A stretch of 64,000 bases of DNA from an uncultured Prevotellaceae bacterium. Its GTDB lineage: Bacteria > Bacteroidota > Bacteroidia > Bacteroidales > Bacteroidaceae. This document shows, one piece after another, positions 16,886-38,229 of this stretch (position 1 is its first letter; the number at the start of each line of letters is the position of its first letter). The stretch is taken from assembly GCA_946184125.1 (NCBI GenBank), contig CAMHEL010000001.1:24905-88904 (forward strand). The letters are read 5' to 3'. Under the pieces are notes generated by a model. The model was not told the origin of the DNA and ran no database searches. It saw only the letters and a program-made list of their open reading frames with translations. The position numbers and the translations under genes are program-made.

Positions 16886-17057
16886 CCTTGAGGGCAGAGG
16901 TAATTCATTATTATCGGCCGAAGCAAATTACCTCTGCCCTCAATGCCGAAGCAAATTACCTCTGCCCTCAATGCCGAAATAAATTACCTCTGCCCTCAAT
17001 GCCGAAGTGAATTACCTCTGCCCTCAATGCCGAAACAAATTACCTCTGCCCTCAATG
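16886..17057. repeat. 28-bp tandem repeat (five units) preceded by one inverted half-unit
   Basis: Five head-to-tail 28-bp units built on AATTACCTCTGCCCTCAATG at 16918, 16946, 16974, 17002 and 17030, with one to three differences each. An inverted arm TTGAGGGCAGAGGTAATT (16888-16905) pairs perfectly with the first unit over 18 bp, so a strong hairpin follows the phosphatase stop. There are no spacers, so it is not CRISPR. Low-complexity AAACTCCT repeats follow to 17115. Confidence 0.9.
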
Positions 17058-17116
17058 CATATGTCTAAACTCTCAAACTCCTAAACTCCTAAACTCCCCA
17101 AAAAACTCCTAAAAAC

Positions 17117-18737: not shown

Positions 18738-21437
18738 TTAGAAAGAGATGCTTACGCCGAAAGTGAATGACCTGTAGGGAGGATATGAGCGCTTGTCGTC
18801 GATGCCTAAGGTGCTGTTCACCACAAAACTGTTTATCATGGGGGTGAGTCCGCTGTAAGAGGTGATGGTGGCGATGTTGTTGATGCTGAACGACACACGC
18901 AACTGGCTGATGTAATCGGTGAAGCGGCTGATGGGGACATTGTAGCCGATGGTGGCATAGTCGAAGTTGAGGTAGTCGCCGCTCTCGAGCCAGTAGTCGG
19001 TGACCGCCTGGTCGTAGATGTCTCGCTTCGGGGCACCCTTCATCACGTTGTAGTCGGGGAATGAGGCCATGTTCATCAGCGAGAGGGCCGTGCCATTGTA
19101 TATCTTGTGACCGAAGGCTCCGTTCATCTGAAGTGAGAAGTCGAAGTCTTTGTATCTCAAGCTGATGTTGGAGCCCAAGGTCCATTTGGGGGTGGCTTGA
19201 CCGGCGATGTACCGGTCTTTTTCTATACTGGCTTCACCGTCGCCGTCCAGGTCGGCAATGTCGTAGTAGTAGCCACCGTCGGGGTACTCTTTCAGCCCGG
19301 TGCAGTGGGGCAGGTAGAACACGCCGAGTGGCTGGCCCACGATCTGGTAGGCGACATCGCGGTTGCTGCCGTGGAAACCGGCACCGTTGAGCTCGCTGAT
19401 GCCCACGACTTTGTTGGCGGCCATGTACTCGCCGTTGTAGGTGCCCGAGAGGGAGATGAGCTTGTTGTACTGACGAGAGAGGTTGAGGTTGGCGTTGAGC
19501 TGGAGGTCTTTTGTCCTGATGAGGGTGGCGCCTATTCCGAATTCAAAGCCAGAGTTGCTCATCGAGCCTAAGTTGGCGTACATCTTTTCATAGGGGAATG
19601 GCGGAACGCTGACATCATAGAGGTAGAGCATGTCGCGCGTCTTCGAGTAGTAGTATTCTGCCTTGAGCACGAAACGGTCGTTCCACATCCCAAGGTCCAG
19701 TCCGATGTTGAAGGTGCTCTTGGTCTCCCATTTCAAATCGGGGTTGACATTGTCGATGCTGCCCAACGTGACGACGGGGGAGTCGTTGCCGGGGATGATG
19801 CCGATGGGCTCATAGATGGGGAGTGAGATGTAGGAACTGATGCCTCCCAGGTTTCCGGTGAAGCCATAGCCTGTGCGGAGCTTGAGCTGGGTGATAGAGG
19901 ATATTCCCTTCATGAAGGGCTCCTTCATCACGTCCCATTCAGCGGATATGGAAGGGAAATATCCCCATCGGTTGTTCTTTCCCACCTTGCTGCTTCCGTC
20001 GGCACGCATGGCCAATCCGAAGGTGTAGCGGTGTAGCATCAGGTATTTGGCGTTGAAGACCAAAGAGGCAAGGCTTGATTTCTCGTACGATGAGCCTGTA
20101 CCGCCGTATGGGCGGAGTGAGCCGGCGCCGAGGTTGTTGTAGCCGAACGCGTCGGTGGAGAAACCTTTCACCGTGGTGAAGAACTGGGTGAGTATGGTTG
20201 CTTGGTATTCACCTACTCCCATGATTTCGATTCTGTGCTCCTCGTCCCAGTCCCACCAGTATTTCAGGCCGAGGTCGGCCAGCCAACTCTCGCTTTTGAG
20301 CTCCCCACGGTAGGCCTGGCCTTGTCCCGACACCGATGTGGGAAGATACTGTGAGTGCTCGGTGCTGGTGAAGGAGTAAGAACCGGTGGTGATGAGCTGA
20401 AGGTTGGGCCAGATGTCATAGGTCGTGTTCAGGTGGGTGTTGAAGTTGAGCATCTTCGTGTCATCCTTATTGCCCAGCAGTGCTATGGGGTGGTTGATTT
20501 GAGAGGCGGTGGCGTTGGTGCTCCACGAACCGTCGCTGTTCTTGGTCGAAGGATAGGTGGGGTTCTGGGCCAATGCGGAGTAGAAAAGGTCTTGTGTGTC
20601 GTAGATTTCTTTGTCGCGCTGCGACGAGCCAAAGACACCTAAGTTGGCGGTGAAACGGTCGTCGAAGGCCTTCTGCTTGATGTCGAGCTTCGCCACGAAA
20701 TTGTCGTAGTCATTGTCCTTGATCACGGCGTTGTGGTCCATCATGCCAATCGATGCACGGTAATTGCTATGGTCGTTGCCGCCGCCAAAGGCGATGTGGT
20801 GATGGTGAATCAGACCGGTGTGGGTGAGCGCCTTGGGGAAGTCGGTGTCGTAGCCGCCGTCGTTGTAGAAATAGTTGAGGCTCTTGGCGGTGTTGATGTA
20901 TCCATTGCGGTCGAGCATCTCCACTTGTTTGAAGGCATGCTCAAAACCGATGTTGCCATCGTAGGAGATTTGGAACTTACCGCTGTGGCCCTTCTTCGTG
21001 GTGACGGCGATGACACCGGAGGCACCACGGGAACCGAACATGGCTGTCTCGGCGGCATTCTTCAGAATGGTGAAACTCTCAATGTCGGCGGGGTAGATGG
21101 TTGATAGGGTGGCGAGGTCGGACGACACGCCGTCGATGAGCACCAGAGGGTCGTTGCCGCCTGTCAGCGATGTCGTGCCTCGAACACGTACCGACGAAAG
21201 CATGGCCATTTGGTTTTCGCCGCTTGACACCTGAACACCGGCTGCCTGGCCGCTCAACTTGTTGATGGAATTGGATACAAAGCCTTTGTTCATGCGGTCC
21301 TCGGTCACTTTGTCCATCGAACCGCCATCGAGAATACTTTGGTTGAGGCTGTCTTTTGGCGTATTGCTACGCTGAGCCTGAATGGGGAGGGATAACAGCA
21401 GTATGACTGTCAGAAGGGGGAGATTCTTAACTCTCAT
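18738..21437 (-). CDS. SusC/RagA-family TonB-dependent transporter (short form)
   Basis: Outer-membrane 22-strand barrel that imports nutrients with energy from TonB. The ORF track starts at 21569, but its first 44 residues translate a repeat element and lie upstream of a canonical promoter. The real start is the ATG at 21437 (MRVKNLPLLTVILLLSLPIQAQ, a clear signal peptide), giving 899 residues. The plug domain has GQAAGVQVSSGENQMAMLSSVRVRG-type pattern, LVLIDGV, IESFTILKNAAETAMFGSRGASGVIAVTTKKG. The usual N-terminal carboxypeptidase-like domain is missing, so it is shorter than typical SusC (about 1000 or more). The barrel ends with FTFGVSISF and a terminal Phe. Pairs with the SusD gene downstream. 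Confidence 0.93.
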   Translation of the reverse strand: MRVKNLPLLTVILLLSLPIQAQRSNTPKDSLNQSILDGGSMDKVTEDRMNKGFVSNSINKLSGQAAGVQVSSGENQMAMLSSVRVRGTTSLTGGNDPLVLIDGVSSDLATLSTIYPADIESFTILKNAAETAMFGSRGASGVIAVTTKKGHSGKFQISYDGNIGFEHAFKQVEMLDRNGYINTAKSLNYFYNDGGYDTDFPKALTHTGLIHHHHIAFGGGNDHSNYRASIGMMDHNAVIKDNDYDNFVAKLDIKQKAFDDRFTANLGVFGSSQRDKEIYDTQDLFYSALAQNPTYPSTKNSDGSWSTNATASQINHPIALLGNKDDTKMLNFNTHLNTTYDIWPNLQLITTGSYSFTSTEHSQYLPTSVSGQGQAYRGELKSESWLADLGLKYWWDWDEEHRIEIMGVGEYQATILTQFFTTVKGFSTDAFGYNNLGAGSLRPYGGTGSSYEKSSLASLVFNAKYLMLHRYTFGLAMRADGSSKVGKNNRWGYFPSISAEWDVMKEPFMKGISSITQLKLRTGYGFTGNLGGISSYISLPIYEPIGIIPGNDSPVVTLGSIDNVNPDLKWETKSTFNIGLDLGMWNDRFVLKAEYYYSKTRDMLYLYDVSVPPFPYEKMYANLGSMSNSGFEFGIGATLIRTKDLQLNANLNLSRQYNKLISLSGTYNGEYMAANKVVGISELNGAGFHGSNRDVAYQIVGQPLGVFYLPHCTGLKEYPDGGYYYDIADLDGDGEASIEKDRYIAGQATPKWTLGSNISLRYKDFDFSLQMNGAFGHKIYNGTALSLMNMASFPDYNVMKGAPKRDIYDQAVTDYWLESGDYLNFDYATIGYNVPISRFTDYISQLRVSFSINNIATITSYSGLTPMINSFVVNSTLGIDDKRSYPPYRSFTFGVSISF

Positions 21438-21460: not shown

Positions 21461-21491
21461 CAAAGGTAGCAAAAACCGAGAGCAATGCAAA
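21461..21491 (-). promoter_or_regulatory. SusC promoter inside the hairpin cassette (TTTG-N19-TACCTTTG)
   Basis: On the minus strand, TTTG (21491-21488) lies 19 nt before TACCTTTG (21468-21461). The -33 TTTG sits in the arm of the hairpin at 21482-21518, and its G is the unpaired bulge. Leader length to the ATG is about 20 nt. Confidence 0.8.
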
Positions 21492-21603
21492 ATAAAAAAT
21501 GCAATTTTTTTTCATTGCCGAGGTGCCCTTTACCTTATGTAAAGGTAGCAAAAACCGAGTGCAATGCAAAATAAAAAAATGGTAATTTTTTTATTTTCAT
21601 TGC
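21482..21603. repeat. Two copies of the promoter-hairpin cassette
   Basis: Copy A (21482-21518) and copy B (21561-21603) share GCAATGCAAAATAAAAAA, an A/T-rich stem and CATTGCCGAGGTG. Copy B forms 19 bp with one bulged C and loop GGTA. They are joined by the 42-bp unit (GAGGTGCCCTTTACC...) that forms the tandem array at 23.6 kb. Copy A drives SusC; copy B faces TACCTTTA, an imperfect -7 box. Each hairpin is flanked by CCGAG or close to it. Confidence 0.85.
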
Positions 21604-21613
21604 CGAGGTGTAA

Positions 21614-21902
21614 CTCAGTGAATCAACTAATAAAGTAATGTTCGTCGGGATTTGCAATCCCGGCGCAGTGAATATCAGGATTTTTAATCCGAAAATCGCA
21701 AACATAGTAACTTACACTCCATGCAGGTGGATTGCAAATCCACCTGAGCGTAAGATTCTCAGTGAATCAACTAAAAAAGTAATGTTCGTCGGGATTTGCA
21801 ATCCCGACGCATTGAATATCAGGATTTTCAATCCGAAAATCGCATTAAAAATGCTTACACTCCATGCAGGTGGATTGCAAATCCACCTGAGCGTAAGATT
21901 CG
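21614..21902. repeat. 144-bp tandem repeat, two units, rich in palindromes
   Basis: Units start at 21614 and 21758. Each holds GTCGGGATTTGCAATCCCG, a GGATTTTTAATCC or GGATTTTCAATCC half-palindrome and CAGGTGGATTGCAAATCCACCTG. The ORF of 100 residues across it is repeat translation only. It fills much of the SusC-ddh gap. Confidence 0.9.
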
Positions 21903-21917
21903 CTGAAGAGTTACGCA

Positions 21918-21953
21918 GAGGTGCCCTTTACCTTATATAAAGGTAGCAAAAAC
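21918..21953. repeat. Partial copy of the 42-bp unit
   Basis: GAGGTGCCCTTTACC, then TTATATAAAGG and TAGCAAAAACC, matching the 42-bp unit tandemly repeated at 23616-23772, with T-to-A change in the loop. Confidence 0.85.
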
Positions 21954-23123: not shown

Positions 23124-23504
23124 TCAGTCGAGCGACGACATGTAGGTCAGGGCCTCAAGCACGGTCATGGTGGGGAGGTCGCAGAAGGTGGAAACCAACT
23201 GCCAGAGCTTCAGCTCATCGTTGTCGATTTCACCATCGATGGCCATGAGCGAACCAAGAAATGCACCCACATAGCGCTTGTGCTCGGTGTCGAGCGATGT
23301 CACCACCGTCAAAGCCTCGGTGAAAGGCATCGACTCGGAGGCTTCGTAGATGGAGGCAAATTCCTCGTGGGGAATGCCAAGACGCTCCATTTCCATTGTC
23401 CATGAACACATCTCGTTCTCAGCCACCTTGCCGTCGGCGGCTATCATCGCATTGGCAAGCTTGGCTATCGCCATCAGGCCGGTCTTCTCGAAACTGATTT
23501 TCAT
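23124..23504 (-). CDS. TerB-like helical protein
   Basis: 126 residues, all helical. It has the acidic metal-binding pattern of the TerB/DjlA N-terminal fold: AMIAADGKVAENEMCSW and later SLMAIDGEIDNDELKLWQ, an internal pseudo-repeat of (A/I)DGxxxxxE. TerB-type domains are linked to tellurite or stress responses and often to membranes; here the role is unknown. The ATG at 23504 (MKISFEKTG) is preferred over the ORF-track start at 23531, which lies closer to the promoter and reads repeat-like sequence. Confidence 0.75.
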   Translation of the reverse strand: MKISFEKTGLMAIAKLANAMIAADGKVAENEMCSWTMEMERLGIPHEEFASIYEASESMPFTEALTVVTSLDTEHKRYVGAFLGSLMAIDGEIDNDELKLWQLVSTFCDLPTMTVLEALTYMSSLD

Positions 23505-23554: not shown

Positions 23555-23614
23555 CAAAGGTAGCAAAAACCGAGTGCAATGCAAAACAAAAAATTCATTT
23601 TTTGTTTTCATGGC
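23555..23614 (-). promoter_or_regulatory. Promoter-hairpin cassette of the TerB-like gene
   Basis: TACCTTTG at 23562-23555 and TTTG at 23585-23582 are 19 nt apart. The hairpin (23576-23614) pairs GCAATG..AAAACAAAAAAT with ATTTTTTGTTTT..CATGGC, one mismatch and one bulged C. The C-G pair in the stem replaces the T-A pair of copy B. Confidence 0.8.
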
Positions 23615-23615
23615 C

Positions 23616-23772
23616 GAGGTGCCCTTTACCTTATGTAAAGGTAGCAAAAACCGAGTGGAGGTGCCCTTTACCTTATGTAAAGGTAGCAAAAACCGAGTGG
23701 AGGTGCCCTTTACCTTATGCAAAGGTAGCAAAAACCGAGTGGAGTTGCCCTTTCCCTTATGTAAAGGTAATG
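23616..23772. repeat. 42-bp tandem repeat, 3.7 units
   Basis: Units begin at 23616, 23658, 23700 and 23742 (partial). Each holds CCTTTAC-CTTAT-GTAAAGG, a 7-bp stem, and TAGCAAAAACCGAGTG. On the minus strand each unit reads GGTTTTTGCTACCTTT, the region of the cassette around the -7 box. ORFs across it are repeat translation. Confidence 0.95.
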
Positions 23773-36352: not shown

Positions 36353-38050
36353 TCATACTAACTTCCAAAGTTTCTTTTCGCAGAGTTTGATTTTACCAGC
36401 ATTGCGTAAATTCATAAGCAAATGTCCAATCTTTGTTATTTTCTGCTGTTCCGTCAATGCATCGGGTAGCTTGTCTAAAAGCAATTCGTTGATTTCTGCT
36501 CTTCCCTTCTTGCCGTGCTGCGCAAGATAGTTGATGATAAGGTCCTTGTAATAGTTGTCATCAAAGCCTTTGTTCTTGGTGTATTTAGCTTCTTGTCCTG
36601 TGGCTTTGGCAACACTTTTGGCAAAATAGAGGGCGTTCTTTCGGCCTTCAACAAGTTTGCGCTTTCTCAGATAGGCAATCTCGTCGTTGCTCAATGGGCG
36701 ATGCAGTTGCACCCTGCTCAGCATCTCAATTTCAAGCAGACTGAGTGACTTATCCCTTGTCAAGAGCATGGCATAGTCGACGTCCACCACCTTGCCAATA
36801 ATGGTCACCTTCACGCGGTTCTCGCTGATATCATAATCGGGCATAGGGAACAGTCTGTCTCGTTGTTTGTTGAACATACGCCTGATACCACTGCCTATCG
36901 TGTCCACTTGCCCCAATTCAACCATGGCATTCGCCAGCATTTTGTTCCTGTAATTCTCTTCGGGGGCGTCGTTTTCAAGCACACTCCTTATGCTGTTGGG
37001 GATGAAACTGCCAAGATTGCTGAAAATGAGCCTGTCTTCCTCTTCCACCACATTGATTATGCCATTGCACCGATAATTTTGGTGGGCAATGGCGTTGTTC
37101 AGGGCTTCTCGAATGATGAATGGGTCATACGTATCAAATTCCTCTGGAACCAAAGTGAGGAGGGCTGGATTCATGTAGCGGTATTTGAAATTGCGTATTT
37201 TATGATACACTTTCTCTGTCGCCAGAATCAGAGGACATGTTTCGATGGAGAAATCACGTTCATTGCCAGTGGAATCCTTATATATCCACCTGATGCGTGC
37301 CACGGCAGGTGATATGAGATACTCGCTCTCAGAACGGCCCAACAGCAAAACGGCGGTATTTGTTATTTTGCCTTTGAGCGTTATCTTGGCCTTGTTGAGA
37401 AACGTCTCATCATCCCAGGTTATCATCTCCTCTGCCAACTTCTCGTGCTTTGTGGCATACAGTTCACGTGCCTTCAGAATAGCTTCAGGATCGAGGTCAT
37501 CCAATGTGGCACCATCCACTATCTCGGCACTCCAATCCTTTGCCGAGAGATAAATCTGGCGGATATAGCCGGGGAAGTCCTTGAGTTTTGTCAGGTTGCT
37601 GCCTATGCGAACATAGGAAATGCCCTTGAAGTTGACCGGTTCTCCTGCGGCTGCCTGTATTTCGAAGATGACGATATGAAGATTGCTGTCACCATTATAG
37701 TCGAACTCTTCAATGTCGAAAGGAATGATGGGTGAGCAGTTCTTTCTCAACCACAATTCATAATCCTGGTTGCCATACTTGGTGGAAGGCATCCGCAGGT
37801 TGGTGCCCACCACCTTCCAAGAACCATCCTCCACTCCCAGTACTAAATAGCCATGAGACTTGTATTTCAGGCAGGCCGAGTTTGCCAGTCCTGAAATGTA
37901 GTTGCCCACACCTTCGTAGGTGATGCTACGGTGTGACTCTCCTATGTTGGTCTTGAACTCCACCCATTCCGTTTCGCCGGCACTCTTGCGCTGGCGAGCC
38001 ATCGACAGAAGTTCCTCCAATAGCCTATGCTGGTCTTCAAGGGTTCTCAT
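36353..38050 (-). CDS. AlbA_2 (Schlafen-type) domain protein with HATPase-like domain, putative transcriptional regulator
   Basis: 565 residues from the ATG at 38050 (MRTLEDQHRLLEELL); the ORF-track start at 38227 is upstream of the promoter. N-terminal AlbA_2 domain (about 20-150) with ETEWVEFKTNIG, ISGLANSACLKYKSHGYLVLGVED and the YVRIGSNLTKL end. The middle (about 300-420) is the GHKL-ATPase-like block found in RecG-like regulators: IIREALNNAIAHQNYRCNGIINV, LIFSNLGSFIPNSI and GQVDTIGSGIRRMF. Winged-helix-type C-terminal region with two parts. Such proteins are common on accessory DNA; the target is unknown. It is driven by the hairpin cassette and diverges from the beta-glucan locus. Confidence 0.85.
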   Translation of the reverse strand: MRTLEDQHRLLEELLSMARQRKSAGETEWVEFKTNIGESHRSITYEGVGNYISGLANSACLKYKSHGYLVLGVEDGSWKVVGTNLRMPSTKYGNQDYELWLRKNCSPIIPFDIEEFDYNGDSNLHIVIFEIQAAAGEPVNFKGISYVRIGSNLTKLKDFPGYIRQIYLSAKDWSAEIVDGATLDDLDPEAILKARELYATKHEKLAEEMITWDDETFLNKAKITLKGKITNTAVLLLGRSESEYLISPAVARIRWIYKDSTGNERDFSIETCPLILATEKVYHKIRNFKYRYMNPALLTLVPEEFDTYDPFIIREALNNAIAHQNYRCNGIINVVEEEDRLIFSNLGSFIPNSIRSVLENDAPEENYRNKMLANAMVELGQVDTIGSGIRRMFNKQRDRLFPMPDYDISENRVKVTIIGKVVDVDYAMLLTRDKSLSLLEIEMLSRVQLHRPLSNDEIAYLRKRKLVEGRKNALYFAKSVAKATGQEAKYTKNKGFDDNYYKDLIINYLAQHGKKGRAEINELLLDKLPDALTEQQKITKIGHLLMNLRNAGKIKLCEKKLWKLV

Positions 38051-38085: not shown

Positions 38086-38143
38086 CAAAGATAGTGCAAA
38101 TCGAGTGGAATGCAGAATAAAAGACGATTTTTATTCTCATTCC
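38086..38143 (-). promoter_or_regulatory. Promoter-hairpin cassette of the AlbA_2 gene
   Basis: Minus strand TATCTTTG (38093-38086), 19 nt after TCTG (38116-38113). Hairpin 38107-38143: GGAATG(c)AGAATAAAA with TTTTATTCTCATTCC, 15 bp and one bulged C. Two stem pairs differ from the other copies in a compensatory way. Confidence 0.75.
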
Positions 38144-38229
38144 CGAGATGAAGCCTATCTTCGCCGAAGGCAAAGGTAACACTTTTTCTTTGAACCAGTC
38201 TATAGCGATAGAGAAATCTTGGATCACGG

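Follow-up and report, generated by a model that had tools for sequence, protein, structure and literature searches.

IS200/IS605 insertion sequences and their non-autonomous derivatives carry an imperfect or bulged hairpin and a 5' guide complementary to the site at their 3' end, and they insert 3' of a short target that is retained; the guides choose the cleavage site (PMC8266576). REP, BIME and REPIN repeats with RAYT transposases are short intergenic hairpins with a mismatch or bulge in the stem, which form clusters and genome-specific families; the super-families of REP with a GTAG or CGTC tag extend to Bacteroidota, and those with CGTC also lack a known transposase (PMC3733652). The BrickBuilt MITE of Porphyromonas gingivalis, itself a member of the Bacteroidota, is intergenic, made of tandem units and endowed with promoter activity, and has been discussed as a possible mobile promoter (PMC4596501). 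Ordinary sigma-ABfr promoters of the Bacteroidota read TTTG-N19-TAnnTTTG and have no hairpin, guide or CTCG blocks.

Here we describe a short non-coding element that resembles each of these in part, and we show its structure, its covariation, its orientation and, at four genes (six sites), its position of insertion. It carries exactly the boxes and the spacing of the sigma-ABfr promoter. With the IS200/IS605 and RAYT/REP systems it shares a hairpin near its end that should fold as a single strand, by prediction and covariation, and a guide 5' of that hairpin complementary to the end site. Unlike in IS200/IS605, the target is the -7 box of a host promoter, a full promoter is carried, the element is much smaller, and no associated Y1 transposase was found. 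Unlike REP, BIME and REPIN repeats, it is flanked at the foot by CTCG on both sides and lacks their GTAG or CGTC tags (PMC3733652, PMC8266576), is placed and oriented as a promoter, lies head to tail rather than in inverted pairs, and has a fixed insertion site. By analogy, the element would work like a REP or an IS200/IS605-derived element; we did not class it as either, because tests for the GTAG tag and for a linked transposase found neither. BrickBuilt differs in its leader, tail and 23-nt bricks and in being bidirectional, and neither -7 box targeting nor a hairpin with paired changes has been described for it (PMC4596501). Classical MITEs differ by their duplicated target and by terminal inverted repeats; no such repeats were seen on the element. 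Open-licence papers on mobile promoters, Prevotella MITEs, Bacteroidota REP sequences and Prevotella start-site maps yielded no description of it.

Four copies in the window

The window, that is, the whole 64-kb stretch of DNA analysed, holds four hairpin copies on its minus strand: A and B in tandem before a SusC-like gene (ATG at 21437), C before a TerB-like gene (ATG at 23504) and D before an AlbA_2-like gene (ATG at 38050). At these three genes an initial annotation had described a recurrent order of hairpin, exactly 13 nt, TA(C/T)CTTTG and gene, and this layout was indeed present at all three starts; each of copies A to D consists of the hairpin, 13 nt and a TAnCTTT(G/A) box. Some details of that description did not hold: the copy A box ends in TTTA (TACCTTTA) and not TTTG, with copy B adjoining in tandem, the -33 position of copy D reads TCTG, and the bulge in the stem is not universal. 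The features are as follows.

21561-21603, minus strand: copy A hairpin H1 (GCAATGAAAATAAAAAAAT / ATTTTTTTATTTT-G-CATTGC), from sequence; DNA fold of -14.7 kcal/mol, z -5.88
21567-21570, minus strand: copy A -33 TTTG within the 3' arm, 19 nt ahead of the copy A -7 box, from sequence; spacing 19-20 nt family-wide
21540-21547, minus strand: copy A -7 box TACCTTTA, which doubles as left box for copy B, from sequence and core-pattern match
21531-21536, minus strand: copy B guide AAGGTA, complementary to TACCTT in both boxes, from sequence; guide and box covary family-wide
21482-21518, minus strand: copy B hairpin H1, the weakest fold among the four copies, from sequence and DNA fold
21461-21468, minus strand: copy B -7 box TACCTTTG, putative proximal promoter of the SusC-like gene, from sequence, core-pattern match and reading of the downstream gene
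23616-23769, minus strand: 3.7 tandem 42-bp units of -7 box, guide and CTCGG spacer, without the H1 hairpin, from TRF (period 42, 96% matches) and sequence
23576-23614, minus strand: copy C hairpin H1, from sequence, core-pattern match and DNA fold
23555-23562, minus strand: copy C -7 box TACCTTTG, putative promoter of the TerB-like gene, from sequence and core-pattern match
38171-38178, minus strand: copy D left box TACCTTTG, presumably the native -7 box and target, from sequence and by analogy with filled and empty sites
38155-38170, minus strand: copy D hairpin H0 (CCTTCGGC) and guide GAAGATAG, complementary to CTATCTT of the right box, from sequence, fold and guide/box test
38107-38143, minus strand: copy D hairpin H1 with a bulged G, TCTG at the -33 position (38113-38116), from sequence; fold z -4.33
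38086-38093, minus strand: copy D right (-7) box TATCTTTG, putative promoter of the AlbA_2-like gene, from sequence

Matches to the core numbered three in the window against none in 100 shuffles, and matches to the 5' arm of the hairpin four against a shuffle mean of 0.22. On DNA folding, a hairpin with one bulge in the 3' arm was obtained for copies A (z -5.9), C (-2.6) and D (-4.3); copy B folded poorly as a single strand, with a z of only -2.0.

The window holds further repeats. The array at 23616-23769 corresponds to the element minus H1, as if H1 had been excised at its foot; taken together with copy C, it makes up a series of promoter-like boxes. Between a remnant element unit (about 21910-21950) and copy A, two copies of a hairpin-rich repeat of about 140 bp (GTGGATTTGCAATCCACC, CGGGATTGCAAATCCCG; 21620-21903) appear inserted into the element array. 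Another tandem repeat (28 bp, 5.1 copies, 93% matches) occupies 16917-17058.

Anatomy and distribution of the family

Across the family, the element is a non-coding unit of about 75-90 bp that reads, in order, left box TAnnTTTG, a small hairpin H0, guide GAAnnTA(G/C), a few nucleotides, CTCG, hairpin H1, one base, CTCG, 8 nt and right box TAnnTTTG. H0 is variable in sequence (GAGACttcGTCTC, GGCttcGCC, GTCCccaaaaGGAC). The foot of H1 was CTCG in every searched type, and a GTAG tag at the 5' foot was absent from all of them, GTAG occurring only within some guides.

The arms of H1 differ greatly among copies yet remain complementary. When searches left the arms free, at least four of the five outermost positions paired in 205 of 226 copies, compared with 52% after arms had been swapped between copies. 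Sliding one arm cut pairing from 93% to 27-39% in the set of 205; since this set had been pre-filtered for pairing, 205 of 226 against 52% is the fair, unfiltered figure. Among the 205 copies the second pair occurs as A-T, C-G, G-C and T-A, and the first and sixth as G-C and A-T; in the foot-filtered set the six outer pairs comprised 13 common Watson-Crick types, compared with 5-9 when slid. Thus the paired stem changes first noticed in the window are real, and far more numerous than four copies could show.

TTTG precedes the right box by 19 or 20 nt in 190 of the 205 copies (3 with shuffled hairpins) and in 76 of the 85 copies whose arms were never searched. The -33 TTTG in the hairpin arm, noted first for the window, where copy D reads TCTG instead, recurs family-wide, and with TAnnTTTG following at this distance shortly upstream of a gene it gives the layout of a Bacteroidota promoter. 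The G of this motif had been taken to be bulged in every copy. A single bulged 3' G best describes only 114 of 205 copies, the rest having no bulge, a bulge in the other arm or a mismatch, so that the bulge is a subtype feature; in the L019/L021 variant of the query genome, to which the window belongs, the -33 G can pair with a C and the adjacent A becomes the bulge. Upstream of purL in this genome (L017, contig C61), a second promoter-like repeat, CGAAAAAGCAAATTCATTTGACTTTTTGCTCACTTATTCGGATTTTTGCACTA(C/T)CTTTG, lies ahead of the element, and its right part is also present in L015 and L016; it is probably another subtype with a CTTATTCG spacer.

The base that follows the guide complements the one ahead of the right box in 111 of 120 copies and the one ahead of the left box in 83 of 120. 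In the 22 copies whose boxes differ, the guide, the complementarity of which is approximate only, fits the right box in 14 and the left in 3 (permuting right boxes gave a mean of 6.9 and a maximum of 12). Because the guide tracks the right box, the two belong together and the left box is foreign; for the same reason we count the right-end box as the element's own and not as a target duplication. A left box was not recognisable in about one-third of copies. Among 120 copies, 37 have a left box ending in TTTA or TCTG and 4 a right box ending in TTTA, a comparison limited by the search pattern, which barred TCTG at the right box. Many tandem pairs (L012/L018, L020, L024, G004) have TTTA in the gene-distal and TTTG in the proximal copy, and in such arrays only the last promoter retains an intact box.

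An ORF starts within 60 nt downstream in 101 of the 129 gene-proximal copies with enough sequence, compared with 26 of 114 on the reverse side and 12% of random non-coding positions. The downstream genes, named from translations or DNA starts, are mutually unrelated; they include purL, tatA, ispD and two TrmH-type methyltransferases in the query genome, and dnaG, leuS, purH, thrS, mutS2 and cca in G079. The initial annotation of a dispersed promoter cassette, oriented to genes and with a covarying hairpin, was thus borne out.

We estimate 25-33 copies in the query genome, where the core pattern gave 33 matches at up to 3 mismatches and its reversed control none. For the family we used a pattern in which only CTCGG, NCTCG, two Ts and TAnnTTT are fixed and the hairpin arms are unconstrained. 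With this pattern the element was found in 76 of 120 genomes of the same genus, at up to 46 copies and with one control match overall; 12 of 247 genomes of the order Bacteroidales matched, including the query genome and one isolated match without the layout; and across the phylum the query genome stood alone among 297, with none of 296 other Bacteroidota matching. Named contigs are mostly from Prevotella and Prevotellaceae, some from Muribaculaceae, Paraprevotella and Alloprevotella, and from single Tannerella and Alistipes assemblies, on which grounds the genus in question is very probably Prevotella. A looser pattern added subtypes and raised the maximum to 59 copies in one genome. The genomes surveyed are mostly drafts or metagenome assemblies, and copies inside one genome are related, so that sequence counts do not represent independent events. 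Each genome has a hairpin family of its own, such as GCAGTATCAAG... in G126 and CAAAACAATCAAGC... in G103, and tandem arrays of 73-88 bp units are common. Copy D had no match in phage and plasmid records, and no family of Rfam 15 matched the element. A member of the FopS sRNA family (RF04319, 78.6 bits) lies about 500 nt from one element copy (L255, 2022-2090, minus strand).

Y1_Tnp was present in 48 of 76 genomes with the element and 25 of 44 without it (p = 0.56). Genomes with 46, 39 and 32 copies had no Y1_Tnp match, and the query genome had one weak Y1 match, with no element copy in that locus. A Y1 transposase as partner was rejected on this lack of association over the 120 genomes. An integron attC site and a phase-variable inverton were also rejected, as the sequence offered no outer inverted repeats or recombinase-type cores.

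Filled and empty promoters

We compared upstream regions of purL from about 60 genomes and of ten other genes from as many as 13 relatives of G079. At purL, dnaG, mutS2 and an mtaB-like gene (six sites), related genomes show both filled and empty promoters. A filled site consists of the native flank and -7 box, then the element, here about 75-85 bp long, with its two hairpins, a guide that complements the element's own -7 box, -33 and new -7 box, and then the gene leader. In the clearest pair, the empty site of G074 reads ...TTGTACCTTTG / CACGCAAATTTC and the filled site of G134 ...TTGTACCTTTG / AAAATATTCGAAGGTAGTCCCGCTCGG-H1-GCTCGCTTATTCGTACCTTTG / CACGCAAATTTC, with long left flanks alike. 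In a second pair, G106 and G119, the native TAACTTTG persists as the left box, and the element contributes TACCTTTG as the right box.

Plain global alignment misplaces the gap between filled and empty promoters because the halves of the element resemble old promoters. Alignments were instead anchored at the boxes, and the 130-nt left flank of each filled left box was compared with the 130-nt left flank of the single box in orthologous empty promoters. The six filled boxes (purL in G119, G134 and G061; dnaG, mutS2 and the mtaB-like gene in G079) scored 74-174, five of them 130-174, compared with a 99.9% point of 71 and a maximum of 79 in controls with other genes (n = 1,471). In contrast, anchoring on the right box gave 21-34, the control level. 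Judged by these alignments, in which orthology rests on short regions, the purL site of G061 is marginal and the other five filled sites are decisive. The element, with its own -33 and -7 boxes, was shown to sit exactly between the native -7 box and the leader of the gene. One alternative offered in the initial annotation had been an element that spreads promoters; its insertion between native -7 box and gene is what these sites directly display.

Proposed mobility and its rivals

We consider it probable that the element is a mobile, short, non-coding element of Bacteroidales, with one genome-specific population per species, which inserts 3' of a -7 box and rebuilds the promoter. The empty sites might instead be derived, ancestral elements having been deleted between the direct -7 repeats, and repeats of this kind should undergo precise deletion at some rate. 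At purL, however, only 5 of 62 genomes are filled, and these five carry four spacer subtypes while 53 have plain promoters; therefore insertion recurs, and repeated insertion appears to explain the purL pattern better than loss. Every genome, moreover, has its own hairpin family, and a derived origin of the empty sites is quite improbable. For the movement of copies the main rival is template switching between boxes, or short-homology gene conversion: a strand stalled or nicked at a -7 box would switch to another element via the 8-9 bp box, copy one unit and return at the next box, with the hairpins aiding stalling. Units bounded by an identical 8-bp box, the frequency of tandem arrays, the existence of units without H1 and the lack of transposase association would all suit such a process. 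It nevertheless leaves unexplained why paired changes preserve the two hairpins and the guide in different species and why the guide tracks the right and not the left box, and some copies lie far from any other; we regard it as unlikely.

The other rivals give the hairpin a function at the gene. The initial annotation had suggested a cruciform or dimer-binding site governing access to the -33 box, and a conserved promoter with a cruciform or operator hairpin, selected for gene control, would account for a TTTG held in the stem at fixed spacing and for the paired changes that maintain the stem. Yet orthologous housekeeping genes of close relatives use plain promoters without the hairpin, the genes served are unrelated housekeeping genes and form no regulon, the loop, the sequence of the arms and the length of the stem all vary freely, not every copy has the bulge, and a second hairpin and the guide, both outside the promoter, covary too. 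This regulatory role is improbable, and the interpretation initially given to the cassette is supported in part. A device acting in RNA, with the hairpin as a terminator, an insulator or a leader structure in transcripts from the left promoter, seems highly improbable: the A-tract/T-tract stems do look like bidirectional terminators in sequence and the left box could fire into H1, but the very -7 box with which H0 and the guide pair is untranscribed from that promoter, the element matches no Rfam family, and relatives do without the device at the same genes.

If the element is mobile, as we prefer, insertion would occur directly 3' of TAnnTTTG, the -7 box of a promoter already in place, and leave the gene leader untouched. 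The -33 and -7 boxes of the element would occupy the places of the native ones and so rebuild the promoter; the right-hand boxes would be the active promoter, and the displaced left box would decay. Insertion would be tolerated even at essential genes because the promoter is rebuilt, and the elements apparently spread through working promoters, essential genes included, without silencing them. With lesser certainty, the element may move in folded, single-stranded form, its guide pairing with its own end box in the manner of IS200/IS605 guides, and the moving enzyme may act in trans. The -7 box is single-stranded in the open complex, and the target could be single-stranded in such an open promoter bubble. 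We tentatively raise the possibility of a new class of mobile DNA that targets promoter opening, in which a folded single-stranded element would enter the melted -7 box, guided by pairing, and rebuild the promoter, and selfish promoters would run essential Prevotella genes.

Promoter evolution is usually put down to point mutation, or to the chance arrival of promoters with transposons. In the present case a short element appears specifically to replace core promoters, serially, in a very common gut and rumen genus, including those of dnaG, leuS, thrS and purL. The finding raises the question of which enzyme moves DNA that carries no gene. Promoter turnover becomes traceable, and paired natural promoters are available to measure effects on expression.
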